Positions 50,530-62,713 of a DNA stretch of 64,000 nucleotides are shown one piece after another. The notes under the pieces are model-generated. The model made no database searches and was not told the origin of the DNA. It saw nothing but the letters and a program-made list of their open reading frames with translations. Every line of letters starts with the position of its first letter. Position 1 is the stretch's first letter. This stretch comes from Candidatus Saccharibacteria bacterium 49-20 (GTDB taxonomy: Bacteria > Patescibacteriota > Saccharimonadia > Saccharimonadales > Saccharimonadaceae): NCBI GenBank assembly GCA_001897295.1, contig MKSN01000001.1:392011-456010 (forward strand), written 5' to 3'. The translations under genes and the position numbers were made by a program.

Positions 50530-51387
50530 GTGACCGTATCATCTACTCGACCCACCACGCGGCGTCCCGCAACCCGCTCCGCAGTAAAACCAGCCCAAAA
50601 GGTAGCGACAAAGCCCACTATCGTCATGATTCATGGCTTCCGTGGCACGCACCATGGGCTTCTTCTGATCGCAAAATATCTCAAGGGGAGTGCGAACATT
50701 ATCATTCCCGATTTACCCGGTTTTGGGAAAGGTGCACGCCTTGCTAAATATGACCTTGAAAGTTACGTCGAATGGCTCCATAAGTTCATGCAGAAACAAT
50801 CATTCAAAACACCACCCGTACTGATGGGCCACTCTTTTGGGAGCATCGTCAGCGCAGCGTACGCCGAGAAGTATCCAAAAGCTATCAAAAAACTTGTGCT
50901 TGTAAATCCCATCGGAGCGCCTGCGCTTGATGGACCAAATAAATTCATGACGAAGCTTGCCGTCGCGTATTACAAGATTGGCGCAAAGTTACCCGATAAA
51001 GTTGCCTACACGTGGCTGGCCGCAAAGCCAGTCGTACGCATTATGAGCGTCACGATGGCAAAAACCCACGACAAGGGCCTGCGTACCTATATTCACCACC
51101 AGCATGACCGTTACTTTAGTCGCTTCCATAGCGCACAGTCAGTGCTTGAAGGCTTTACCACCTCGATTAGTCACAATGTGGGCGACTTCGCAAAGAAAAT
51201 ACCCGTACCGACACTCCTGATTGCAGGCTCGCTTGATGACATCACGCCACTCAGCGACCAGTATGCATTGGTCAAAAAATTCCCAAAGGGACAGCTCAAG
51301 GTTATTAGTAATGTAGGGCACTTAACCCACTACGAAACACCCGAACTCGTCGCAAAGTTAATTCAGGCGTTTCTTAAGTCGGTATAA
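50530..51387 (+). CDS. Alpha/beta-hydrolase fold protein
   Basis: The 285-residue protein starts at GTG 50530: TATAAT ends exactly six bases before it, a clear leaderless start. After about 30 disordered residues the hydrolase core begins: IVMIHGFRGTHHG (oxyanion), LMGHSFGSIVSAAY (nucleophile Ser in GHSFG), IAGSLDDITPLS (acid Asp) and NVGHLTHYETP (catalytic His). Substrate unknown. Its end overlaps the convergent glycosyltransferase gene by 25 bases. Confidence 0.83.
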   Translation: MTVSSTRPTTRRPATRSAVKPAQKVATKPTIVMIHGFRGTHHGLLLIAKYLKGSANIIIPDLPGFGKGARLAKYDLESYVEWLHKFMQKQSFKTPPVLMGHSFGSIVSAAYAEKYPKAIKKLVLVNPIGAPALDGPNKFMTKLAVAYYKIGAKLPDKVAYTWLAAKPVVRIMSVTMAKTHDKGLRTYIHHQHDRYFSRFHSAQSVLEGFTTSISHNVGDFAKKIPVPTLLIAGSLDDITPLSDQYALVKKFPKGQLKVISNVGHLTHYETPELVAKLIQAFLKSV

Positions 51388-52529
51388 ATCGCTTCAAAGC
51401 GATTAAGTGTTGATTCGAGGTCGTGACCGCGTGCAATGGCAAGGCTTTCTTCTGACATCGCTTGACGGAGCGCATCGTTTTCAAGAATACGCTGAATACC
51501 ACGCGCAATTGCCTCGTCGTCGTCTTGTTCGGTAAGGTAGCCGTTACGCTCGTGTTGGCAGAGTTCGCGAAGCGCGCCCGCATCAACCGCAACAATTGGC
51601 TGGCCACTCGCCATCGCCTCGAGCGTTGCGATACTTTGAAGCTCAGCAGGGGATGGCATACAAAATACAGTCCCAATCTTGTGAAGCTCTACTAAGTCCT
51701 CGTCACTGACGCGGCCAGTAAGGGTCATCGAGCGTGAAATACCAAGTTCATGCGCCATTGACTGAAGCGTCGCACGCTCGGTTCCATCACCGACAATCAG
51801 TAGGTGAATGTTCGGCATCACTGATTGCACGCGAATAAATGCACGAAGAAGTACTGGAAGGTGCTTTTCGGCGTCGAGTCGACCTACATAGGCAACAATT
51901 GGCTGGTCTTTAGGGATATTAAACCGCTCGTAGACATCATCGGCGGCTTGACCGGGGGTGAATCGAGACAAGTCGATACCATTTGAAACCGCTTCCATCG
52001 GAGTAGTAATCTTGCCAACATCAAACATCTCAATCGCAGACTGTGTCGGCATTGTGATGTAGTCGGCCTTTGAGTGGAAGCGTGCACCATACGACTTCAG
52101 CATGTAGTTAATCGGGCGCGAAACCGGCGCCAAAAGGCGAAGGTTGTCCATAAGGTTTTCTGGCATTGCGTGGTTGGTACTGACAATTGGAATGCCATAC
52201 TTGTTGCCATATTTCATTGTTGCTTGGCCGATACCAAGAAGCATCTGAATATGGATTGCATCTGGGTCAAAGTCGTCAATAATCTTTTTCACCTCGCGTG
52301 ATGGATTCAACGAGATGCGGAAGTTCTGATAAAAAGGAAACGGTACCGAGACCGTTCGCGCAATCACATAATTGCCATCTACTTCTTTGTACCGTTTACC
52401 GGTTTGACTAGGGGCGATCACTAACACTTCGTGGCCATGCGCAGCCAGTCCTTGTGCAAGGTTTCGGCTAAAGGTGGCGACACCATTGATAGTCGGGTAG
52501 TGGAGGTCCGACGCGATTAATATCTTCAT
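51363..52529 (-). CDS. GT4-family glycosyltransferase
   Basis: The 388-residue GT-B enzyme begins KILIASDLHYPTINGVATFSRNLA and has VAYVGRLDAEKHLPVLLRAF, LTGRVSDEDLVELH and CMPSPAELQSIATLEAMASGQPIVAVDAGALRELC, the EX7E-type nucleotide-sugar site. It resembles mannosyltransferases acting on membrane lipids or diacylglycerol. On the minus strand TATAAT lies 10 bases before the ATG, at the edge of the hairpin element 52547-52693. Confidence 0.87.
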   Translation of the reverse strand: MKILIASDLHYPTINGVATFSRNLAQGLAAHGHEVLVIAPSQTGKRYKEVDGNYVIARTVSVPFPFYQNFRISLNPSREVKKIIDDFDPDAIHIQMLLGIGQATMKYGNKYGIPIVSTNHAMPENLMDNLRLLAPVSRPINYMLKSYGARFHSKADYITMPTQSAIEMFDVGKITTPMEAVSNGIDLSRFTPGQAADDVYERFNIPKDQPIVAYVGRLDAEKHLPVLLRAFIRVQSVMPNIHLLIVGDGTERATLQSMAHELGISRSMTLTGRVSDEDLVELHKIGTVFCMPSPAELQSIATLEAMASGQPIVAVDAGALRELCQHERNGYLTEQDDDEAIARGIQRILENDALRQAMSEESLAIARGHDLESTLNRFEAIYTDLRNA

Positions 52530-52546
52530 AATTTAGTTCATTATAG

Positions 52547-52693
52547 CATGGCTCGCGCAGGCCAGGTCTGGCTGCCTTTTCAAAGGACACTTTCGCGTAG
52601 CCCAAGGCTCTTAAGGCGTAGAGACCCTTAAGAGTCGTGGCGCGAAGCAAGTTCCGTGAAAACGGCAGTCAGACCTGGCCTGCGCGAGCCATG
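52547..52693. repeat. Large covarying hairpin element, copy 1
   Basis: The outer arms 52547-52570 and 52670-52693 are perfect complements over 24 bases and continue with a G-T pair and CTGCC/GGCAG. The inside goes on pairing, up to an apical stem CTTAAGG/CCTTAAG around a 9-base loop. On the minus strand the core aligns with 61113-61234: both share CCGTTTTCACG, CTTAAGGGTCTCTACG, CCTTAAG and CTTTGAAAAGG. Several positions differ in both partners of a pair. It fills the whole gap between the two divergent glycosyltransferase promoters. Confidence 0.8.
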
Positions 52694-52709
52694 ATAAAAT
52701 CAAACATAT

Positions 52710-53774
52710 ATGAAGCTATTTTTTGACGCTCGGTACACCCGAACCGACTACCATGATGGGATCAGCCGCTACTCAGCAGAGCTTGGCAATGCATTGGCAA
52801 AGCTAACGCCAGTAACTTTTTTGATTTCCGAAGATGGGCAGAAAAAATGGTTTCCTAGTGACGCAGAGTTTATAAAAATTCATGCGGGTACTTCCATCAA
52901 AGAACCGTGGACCGCGCGCATTCTTAATAAGTACAAACCAGACGTGGTGTATAGCCCAATGCAGACAATTGGCACCAAAGGACGCAAATACAAATCAGTA
53001 CTGACCCCGCAAGATATGATCTACTATCGCCACCCAAAAGCTCCTGGATTCCTGCCACTTCACGTGCGCATTGGTTGGTGGTTTTATCACCAAACCTACA
53101 TCCCGCAGCGCCTCATCCTTAAAGGTGGCGACTTGATCACAACGGTGAGTCACGCCTCAGCAAAAGACCTTAAGGACGCGGGCATGACGAAGCTTCCAAT
53201 TCATGTGGTTTACAACGCACCACAGCAATTTTCAAAGTTTCCGGTAACACACGAAAAAATCATAAAGAACATTGTCTTCATGGGCTCGTTTATGCCATAT
53301 AAAAACTCCGAAACCCTGATTAAAGGAATGGAGTGGCTTCCGGGACGCACACTCCACCTACTCAGTCGCATCGGCGCTAAACGCAAAGCCGAACTTGAAA
53401 AAATGATTCCAAAAGATGCGCAGGTGATATTTCATAATGGAGTCAGTGACGTTGAGTACGAAAAGCTCTTGGCAAGTAACGCGCTGCTTGCCACCGCGAG
53501 CCTCGACGAAGGCTTCGGCATTCCTGTCGCCGAAGCAATGGCGATGGGCGTCCCGGCGGTTATTAGCGACATTCCAGTCTTCCACGAGGTAGGAGCGGAC
53601 GGCGCACTCTATTTCAATCCACACGACCCTAAAGACTTCGCGAAGCAAGTACAAAAACTTGACGACATCGCTTTTCGCAAAGACCTTATTAAAAAAGGTC
53701 ACACCCAGGTCAATACGTTTAGTTGGGACGCCTCAGCAAAGGTCCTACTCGACGCCATCAAATCCGTGCTCTAA
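52710..53774 (+). CDS. GT4-family glycosyltransferase
   Basis: The 354-residue GT-B enzyme has DARYTRTDYHDGISRYSAEL at its N terminus, NIVFMGSFMPYKNSETLIKG and ATASLDEGFGIPVAEAMAMGVPAVISD, the second nucleotide-sugar motif. Likely substrate is a cell-envelope glycan or glycolipid. TAAAAT lies nine bases before the ATG. The gene is divergent from the other glycosyltransferase gene, separated only by the hairpin element and the two -10 boxes. Confidence 0.86.
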   Translation: MKLFFDARYTRTDYHDGISRYSAELGNALAKLTPVTFLISEDGQKKWFPSDAEFIKIHAGTSIKEPWTARILNKYKPDVVYSPMQTIGTKGRKYKSVLTPQDMIYYRHPKAPGFLPLHVRIGWWFYHQTYIPQRLILKGGDLITTVSHASAKDLKDAGMTKLPIHVVYNAPQQFSKFPVTHEKIIKNIVFMGSFMPYKNSETLIKGMEWLPGRTLHLLSRIGAKRKAELEKMIPKDAQVIFHNGVSDVEYEKLLASNALLATASLDEGFGIPVAEAMAMGVPAVISDIPVFHEVGADGALYFNPHDPKDFAKQVQKLDDIAFRKDLIKKGHTQVNTFSWDASAKVLLDAIKSVL

Positions 53775-61112: not shown

Positions 61113-61234
61113 GCGAAACGGGTCCTACCGTTTTCACGAAACTTACTTCACGCAATAAACCTTAAGGGTCTCTACGCCTTAAGGTTTTTTGGCTACGTGA
61201 AAGTGTTCTTTGAAAAGGTAGGACCTGTTTCGCG
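61113..61234. repeat. Large covarying hairpin element, copy 2
   Basis: GCGAAACGGGTCCTACC (61113-61129) pairs with GGTAGGACCTGTTTCGC (61218-61234) with one G-T pair. Pairing continues inward, e.g. CTTCACG/CGTGAAAG, to the apical ACCTTAAGG/CCTTAAGGT stem and the same 9-base loop as copy 1. It fills the gap between the DUF4367-like gene and the -10 box of gltX (TATAAT 61255-61260). Confidence 0.8.
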
Positions 61235-61270: not shown

Positions 61271-62713
61271 ATGACATCTGTACGCACACGTTTCGCACCA
61301 AGTCCAACTGGGTTTATGCACGTCGGCGGTGTTCGCACCGCTTTGTTTGCGTGGCTTCTTGCCCAACAAGCCAAAGCAACAGGCGAGGGGACTTTTATCC
61401 TTCGCATTGAAGATACCGACAAGGTCCGCGAAGTTGCAGGGAGTATTGAGCAGATCGAAAACAGTCTTAAGTGGCTTGGTATTCGCTGGGACGAAGGTGT
61501 TGATCAAGGTGGCCCTGACGCACCCTACAAGCAATCTGAGCGTCTCGACATCTACAAAGAGTGGGCGCAAAAGCTCATCGACGCCGGCCGTGCGTACGCC
61601 GACCCGTATACACAAGAAGAGCTCGAAGCGTTCCGCGAACAAGCAAAAGCCGCAAAGCGACCATTCCTGTTCCGTGACCACCGCCCAGAAAACCCACCGG
61701 TATGGGACGGCTCTCAACCGCTCCGTTTTAAATCTGACCCTAAACCATACCAATGGACCGACGCAGTCATGGGCGAGCTGTCGACCGGCGAAGATGCAAT
61801 CGACGACTTCATCCTTATTAAGAGTGACGGCTATCCAACCTATAACTTCTGTCACATTGTCGACGATGCTATCATGGGCATTACTCACGTCCTTCGCAGC
61901 CAAGAGTTCATCAGTTCGACACCAAAGTTCCTCAACCTTTACGACGCACTCGAAGTAGACCGCCCAACGCTGGCGACACTCCCATTCGTCATGGCAATCG
62001 ACGGCAAGAAAAAGCTCGGTAAACGCGACGGAGCAAAAGACATCCTCGAATACGCCAAGGAAGGGTACCTTCCCGAAGCAATGGCAAACTTCCTCGCAAC
62101 ACTTGGTTGGAATGATGGCACCGAGCAAGAAGTATTTACCATGCAAGAACTCATTGAAAAGTTCTCACTTGACCGTGTGCAAAAGAGCCCGGCTCGCTTC
62201 GACGAACAGCGCCTACTATGGCTCAACGGCCAGCACATTCGTGCGCTGAGCCTCGATGACCTTTACACTCGCGTCACCGACTTTTGGCCAGCCTCAGCAG
62301 CGGGCGCAAGCGAAGAAAGCAAGAAGCAAGTCCTCGCGCTCGTCCAGGACCGCATGAAAACACTCGCGGATCTTTCAATTTTGACAAGCTACTTCTTTGA
62401 GGAACCGACCCCAAACTGGGAGATGGTCTCGAGCAACAAGCAGCTCGCCAAGCTCACCAACGATGAAGTTCACGCGCTCCTCGAGGAAGCGAAGAACTCA
62501 TTAAGCGCAAGTGACTTTACCGCCGAAGCAATCCAGGCAACGCTCAATAATCTTCTTGAAATCACAGGACAAAAACCTGGCATTCTATTCAGCCTGATTC
62601 GTCTTGCCGTGTCATGGGCACCGTTTAGTCCTGCACTGAACGACACGCTTGCAACTCTTGGTAAGGAAGTTACTCTACAACGCCTCCAGGTTAGTCTCGA
62701 TTCACTTAAGTAA
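61271..62713 (+). CDS. gltX: Glutamyl-tRNA synthetase
   Basis: The 480-residue class I synthetase charges tRNA-Glu. Motifs: RFAPSPTGFMHVGGVRTALF (HIGH region, residues 6-25), EDTDKVREV, and KKLGKRDGAKDI (KMSKS-equivalent, about 245). Length is normal for bacterial GluRS. TATAAT lies 10 bases before the ATG. It may also charge tRNA-Gln, as in bacteria lacking GlnRS; this window does not decide that. Confidence 0.95.
   Translation: MTSVRTRFAPSPTGFMHVGGVRTALFAWLLAQQAKATGEGTFILRIEDTDKVREVAGSIEQIENSLKWLGIRWDEGVDQGGPDAPYKQSERLDIYKEWAQKLIDAGRAYADPYTQEELEAFREQAKAAKRPFLFRDHRPENPPVWDGSQPLRFKSDPKPYQWTDAVMGELSTGEDAIDDFILIKSDGYPTYNFCHIVDDAIMGITHVLRSQEFISSTPKFLNLYDALEVDRPTLATLPFVMAIDGKKKLGKRDGAKDILEYAKEGYLPEAMANFLATLGWNDGTEQEVFTMQELIEKFSLDRVQKSPARFDEQRLLWLNGQHIRALSLDDLYTRVTDFWPASAAGASEESKKQVLALVQDRMKTLADLSILTSYFFEEPTPNWEMVSSNKQLAKLTNDEVHALLEEAKNSLSASDFTAEAIQATLNNLLEITGQKPGILFSLIRLAVSWAPFSPALNDTLATLGKEVTLQRLQVSLDSLK

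Follow-up and report, generated by a model that had tools for sequence, protein, structure and literature searches.

A previously unlisted palindromic DNA element dispersed in one Saccharibacteria family, with arms that differ from copy to copy

The hairpin locus and its second copy

The window, a stretch of 64,000 nucleotides from Candidatus Saccharibacteria bacterium 49-20 (genome G000), contains two related hairpins (Table 1). Copy 1 sits between two divergent genes, of 388 aa on the minus strand and 354 aa on the plus strand, and the orthologues of these genes in the sister species G013 are located at 341805-342971 (83% identical) and 340564-341628 (75% identical), respectively. Copy 2 lies upstream of a 480-aa gene, whose orthologue is found at G013:331057-332484.

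The hairpin proposed by the initial annotation at 52547-52693 is real. Read in the sequence, its 147 bases form a near-perfect palindrome, and the fold energy was -108 kcal/mol compared with a mean of -50 for shuffled sequences (z -14.7), a value that none of 200 shuffles equalled. The genome-wide inverted-repeat scan placed this copy at G000:444550-444710, with arms of 41. We also found the second hairpin at 61113-61234 (fold z -8 against shuffles), which aligns with the minus strand of copy 1. The paired changes that had been named are present in both copies, and the differences include true two-sided changes. As for the reported similarity of about 120 bases, only a core of about 85 bases (52577-52663) is conserved; copy 1 has outer arms of about 30 bp, which have nothing in common with the arms of copy 2.

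At both ends (52535-52552 and 52685-52706), copy 1 reaches extended -10 like boxes of the divergent genes, on the left that of the minus-strand gene and on the right that of the plus-strand gene, and these boxes are mirrored in G013 too; a promoter may have been copied across by the insert.

Table 1. Features at the two hairpin loci, in window coordinates
Feature	Position	Strand	Evidence and remarks
388-aa gene left of copy 1	51363..52529	-	MKILIASDLHYPTINGVATFSRNLA; glycosyltransferase-like by eye; ORF list
Copy 1 left arm	52540..52576	.	Site-specific; sequence and genome-wide inverted-repeat scan
Copy 1 conserved core	52577..52663	-	Model R2 positions 1-86; ACGGAACTTGCTTCGCGCC ... AAGGGTCTCTACGCCTT ... 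GGGCTACGCGAAAGTGTCC; G000:444587-444673 (L071:4587-4673); cmsearch R2, 84.7 bits, E 1.9e-26
Copy 1 right arm	52664..52700	.	Inverted repeat of copy 1 left arm
354-aa gene right of copy 1	52710..53774	+	MKLFFDARYTRTDYHDGISRYSAEL; glycosyltransferase-like by eye; ORF list
Copy 2 left arm	61113..61129	.	Unrelated to copy 1 arms
Copy 2 conserved core	61130..61216	+	G000:453140-453226; cmsearch R2, 73.5 bits, E 2.2e-22
Copy 2 right arm	61217..61234	.	Inverted repeat of copy 2 left arm
480-aa gene downstream of copy 2	61271..62713	+	Glutamyl-tRNA synthetase-like by eye; ORF list

The two hairpins belong to a repetitive family

A DNA-level search found three more places in the genome itself and, among 40 relatives, matches in two species of the genus. 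The first alignment comprised 13 copies and gave a consensus of 44 pairs, 34 of them with two-sided changes; its model recovered ten copies in G000 plus weaker relatives in other genomes. A second model (R2), restricted to the core and built on 30 diverse copies, found 12 copies in G000 and 18 in G013 when both whole genomes were searched, and all of these score far above the single chance-level match. Within the order, 393 genomes were searched with the same model and 46 gave hits; 42 of these belong to one family (f1). At a looser cut-off it matched 18 of 40 close relatives. A sample of 380 genomes from the phylum yielded 11 genomes with hits, ten of them in f1. Some genomes of the genus show no copies; many of the searched genomes are metagenome assemblies. 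The covariance search of Saccharibacteria genomes thus recovered a real family, and the two copies in the window are far from the only ones. The hairpin at 52547-52693 is a copy of a repetitive DNA element that had not been listed before and that belongs to a single family of Saccharibacteria.

The conserved part is a self-folding core of about 85 bp, and the hairpins overall measure about 110-160 bp. Three related short motifs, CTTCRCGC, CTCTRCGC and TGCAGA or a variant, are located at the internal loops and the apical loop. In the core signature, GCTTCRCGCC is followed by one half of a variable stem, GGGYCTCTRCGCC, the second half of that stem, and then GGGYTGCAGA or GGYTACGCGA.

That the element belongs to no named RNA family agrees with Rfam 15, which gave no credible match to it and reported tRNAs only in the window. 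At a relaxed threshold, eight loci yielded two matches far under the gathering score, one of which, to a miRNA precursor family, lay over an element. Exact core patterns were not found in viral contigs, and blastn against phages and plasmids found no element. We found no earlier description of palindromic repeats of Saccharibacteria or Patescibacteria in the literature, which is not proof of absence.

Many copies lie in frame within conserved genes

The initial annotation had also noted a similar short peptide encoded by both copies. The peptide does not represent a gene at either of the two intergenic sites, but elsewhere the element does lie in frame inside genes, essential ones among them: 40 of the 127 copies with flanks are located in a long open frame. 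Profile searches identified the hosts as MnmA, topoisomerase I (TopA), CysRS, DnaX, RNase HII (at its junction or linker with YraN), a dihydrouridine synthase (Dus), TlyA and others. Several frames are used, and the core is sense in 17 coding copies and antisense in 23.

Among 16 genomes of the genus of G000, the LeuRS gene is filled in seven and empty in nine, all in frame. One of the seven (L256, leuS of G003) carries a shortened remnant, SENGAADVSS, apparently a stage of decay. For MnmA in a second genus (g52), we read 26 copies, of which about 12 are empty and six contain this element, while other insertions occur in more. The MnmA loop in g52 is an insertion hotspot. Other in-frame insertions at the same loop of mnmA were seen in L270, L273, L281, L282, L284, L288, L289, L292 and L293, and some of the other insertions in this loop are strong hairpins with a different centre.

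Site occupancy and core orientation change between close species

We matched the gene neighbourhoods of G000 and G013, allowing for opposite genome directions, and found seven sites common to both. The core has the same orientation at two of them (G000:558621 and 656838) and is flipped at five (G000:444573, 453126, 520516, 562033 and 675194). Further flips were found in LeuRS of G007, where the core is reversed, and in MnmA of G431. A flipped core at a shared site need not mean inversion; the element could have inserted there independently, at a hotspot. Other sites are occupied in one of the two species only.

The gaps that bear the element are divergent, convergent and co-directional. An intrinsic terminator or promoter element was considered and rejected, since all gene arrangements occur and many copies lie inside genes. 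Clustering at the replication origin, with parAB among the copies, was rejected as well: dnaA and the GC-skew minimum of G000 are located at about 785-794 kb, and the copies lie at unremarkable distances from the minimum (p 0.23 and 0.59).

All 12 copies of G000 and 17 of the 18 of G013 are on one replichore, from GC-skew minimum to maximum, and by synteny it is the same one. Oppositely oriented cores occur in pairs, separated by about 110-140 bp, at L039/L044, L111, L109, L227 and L031; at L111 both cores lie within one MnmA frame.

Paired changes in core and arms

In 30 distinct copies of the core, 175 cells were two-sided and only three one-sided, so that further copies do not differ without pair compensation. 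None of 500 shuffles reached the observed paired cells, two-sided cells or covariation score, for an alignment that was fitted to the structure and leans that way.

The arms differ from copy to copy, reach up to about 40 bp, and are often near-perfect inverted repeats. The longest inverted repeats (score >= 18, within 340 bp) are this element in 16 of 19 cases in G013 and four of six in G000. At an inherited intergenic site (G000:656838, G013:144991), the arms of the two species are clearly homologous and their changes are mirrored on both sides, for example GAGCAACT with AGTTGCTC in one and GAGTAACT with GTTACTC in the other.

A selected RNA fold should tolerate G.U, not A.C. In the arms beyond the model, we counted 1359 Watson-Crick pairs, 31 G.T and 30 A.C over 60 copies. 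This wobble count is of arms only; counts that took in the core edges showed an A.C excess, which is probably due to fixed core mismatches. On the mRNA strand of the coding copies there were 16 G.U against 26 A.C. Among the inner stem mismatches, G.T (70) did not exceed A.C (49) significantly (p 0.07). The equal numbers of G.T and A.C in the arms suggest DNA or plain mutation, not RNA pairing. The inner stem covaries too, so that selection on the fold is possible there, and selection acting on a DNA hairpin is conceivable for the core.

One arm of the LeuRS copies matches native sequence

In LeuRS, the left arm is native sequence, corresponding to the codons of GAEI, E/D/S and F. The right arm, as reverse complement, repeats the left arm species by species (ATTGAATTC, ATAGAATTC, ATTTCTTT and ATTGATTTC). 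For the eight LeuRS copies, the pairing of each left arm with its own right arm was the best of 40,320 permutations, and no comparable inverted repeat was found in the empty LeuRS genes. Because own arms match best and empty genes lack the repeat, the right side follows the left, and the paired changes in LeuRS result from copying of one flank onto the other. Similarly, at G013:286536 a native coding end, CACTTTGGC, is near-identical at the empty G000 site and has its inverted copy beyond the element. In MnmA, the arms have no counterpart in the empty gene and belong to the inserted DNA, not to native codons, which indicates that they arrived or grew with the insert. As read from the sequences, copying of an arm from the native flank is therefore clean only at LeuRS.

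Alternative explanations

The initial annotation took the paired changes as the mark of selection on a folded form. This interpretation is not supported, given the near equality of G.T and A.C in the arms, the flips and the coding copies. Its RNA version, in which the core strand of a structured non-coding RNA or UTR element is transcribed and folded under RNA selection for compensatory changes, draws on the very strong covariation, the conserved internal and apical loops and the thermodynamic stability of the hairpins. We nevertheless consider it very unlikely, as G.U does not exceed A.C either in the arms or, for coding copies, on the mRNA strand, the genes on either side of copy 1 are divergent, the core orientation flips relative to the same genes, 40 copies occupy protein-coding frames in both orientations, and the element is absent from Rfam.

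Two DNA-level alternatives were weighed against the same observations. BIME/REP sequences are thought to bind gyrase or IHF, and direct selection on a DNA hairpin or cruciform that serves as the binding site of a chromosomal protein needing a palindrome would fit the symmetric constraint on both strands, the conserved unpaired motifs and the orientation independence. Such a site is unlikely here, however, because closely related species differ in which sites are occupied, copies are missing from some genomes of the genus, in-frame positions within LeuRS or MnmA make poor chromosomal sites, and the unique arms of 20-40 bp contribute nothing to binding. The usual MITE, moved by a transposase that recognizes conserved ends, is suggested by the size, the dispersal and the intergenic and in-frame sites, which resemble those of RPE and ERIC (PMC2229807, PMC10969869). 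This explanation is highly improbable, since the ends are not conserved from copy to copy and the RAYT-type Y1 transposase is absent from G000: PF01797 had no matches there, and eight of 14 controls were positive. Comparison of filled with empty LeuRS or MnmA sites showed no visible target-site duplication, for an element whose ends are not defined. The element could not be linked to any transposase or recombinase.

A probable selfish palindromic insert with arms rewritten from host flanks

The paired changes resemble the outcome of DNA being copied onto itself more than that of RNA conservation, and a DNA-level process explains them better. We therefore regard the element as probably a dispersed, non-autonomous, selfish palindromic DNA insert, in which DNA synthesis templated by the hairpin rewrites the arms from the flanks of the host. 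The dispersal, the site turnover, both orientations, the tolerance in frame, the mirrored arms and the source of one arm were observed in the genomes; the copying and core-flipping steps are what we infer from them. In this mechanism, a core exposed as single-stranded DNA in replication or repair would fold into a hairpin, and the nascent strand would switch template within the hairpin, so that one flank is copied inverted onto the other side. Such copying would both make the arms and keep them matched, as in quasi-palindrome correction, and the core would be flipped when the two inverted arms recombine with each other. An insert in a gene would survive where its open frame falls in a tolerant loop or domain linker.

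SbcCD cuts palindrome hairpins, and its absence from the genus would make palindromes tolerable. The proposed copying and flipping fit our finding that SbcD was not found in 16 of 17 genomes of the genus and was found in 13 of 14 controls. The SbcD-like match in the one remaining genome, G009 (locus L300), is weak.

A new mobile type, consisting of a self-folding core only and building arms out of host DNA wherever it lands, is a possible but doubtful extension. A 3' end primed on the hairpin core would be extended round the core and back along its own flank, each insertion would duplicate the target inverted, and repeated hairpin-templated correction would keep the match.

Comparison with known systems

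The nearest known system is that of the Rickettsia palindromic elements (RPE), reportedly worked on by Ogata, Claverie and colleagues; compared by description only, the present element appears to be of the same kind, and we do not file it as an RPE. RPE and their Wolbachia equivalents are palindromes of about 105-150 bp, found in intergenic regions and in frame in many unrelated conserved genes (PMC2229807, PMC10969869). The Saccharibacteria element is likewise a palindrome of about 100-150 bp in many copies (12 and 18 in the two genomes) and occurs in frame in unrelated conserved genes (MnmA, TopA, CysRS, DnaX and others). RPE have terminal inverted repeats of about 12 bp (PMC2229807), whereas here the ends are not conserved between copies and the arms are unique to each. 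According to PMC6649704, repeat identity in RPE is lost over time; the Saccharibacteria arms, in contrast, are site-specific yet remain matched, and they enclose a core found in either orientation.

The same source describes perfect inverted repeats in coding genes of nematomorph mitochondria, thought to be actively maintained, with template switching proposed (PMC6649704). The likeness lies in palindromes within coding genes and in concerted arms attributed to template switching; no shared core element appears to be described there, whereas the bacterial element has a conserved dispersed core between its arms. Quasi-palindrome template-switch correction (e.g. PMC7202029) would similarly remove the imperfections of an inverted repeat that encloses a loop, but it is a mutational process known from reporters, not a named family of elements. 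REP/BIME sequences with RAYT, tagged by GTAG or CGTC, are also dispersed extragenic palindromes; the difference is that the Y1_Tnp family is not in G000. REP/BIME measure 20-40 bp (PMC3733652).

Textbook compensatory changes can plausibly arise without RNA selection, through DNA copying within a palindrome, with LeuRS as a clear example, and such elements could mislead covariation-based RNA discovery. With this element, protein-coding palindromic inserts are known from another bacterial lineage, the second and unrelated to the first, here in epibionts with small genomes and in genes of translation and replication. The filled and empty sites of the element can be used for testing how such elements spread.

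A second hairpin family was seen at G000:590834-591017, G013:204520-204709 and G013:208186-208376, with perfect arms of 33-36 bp and a related centre of 118-119 bases. Its copy at G013:208186 occupies a site where G000 has the present element (588222).
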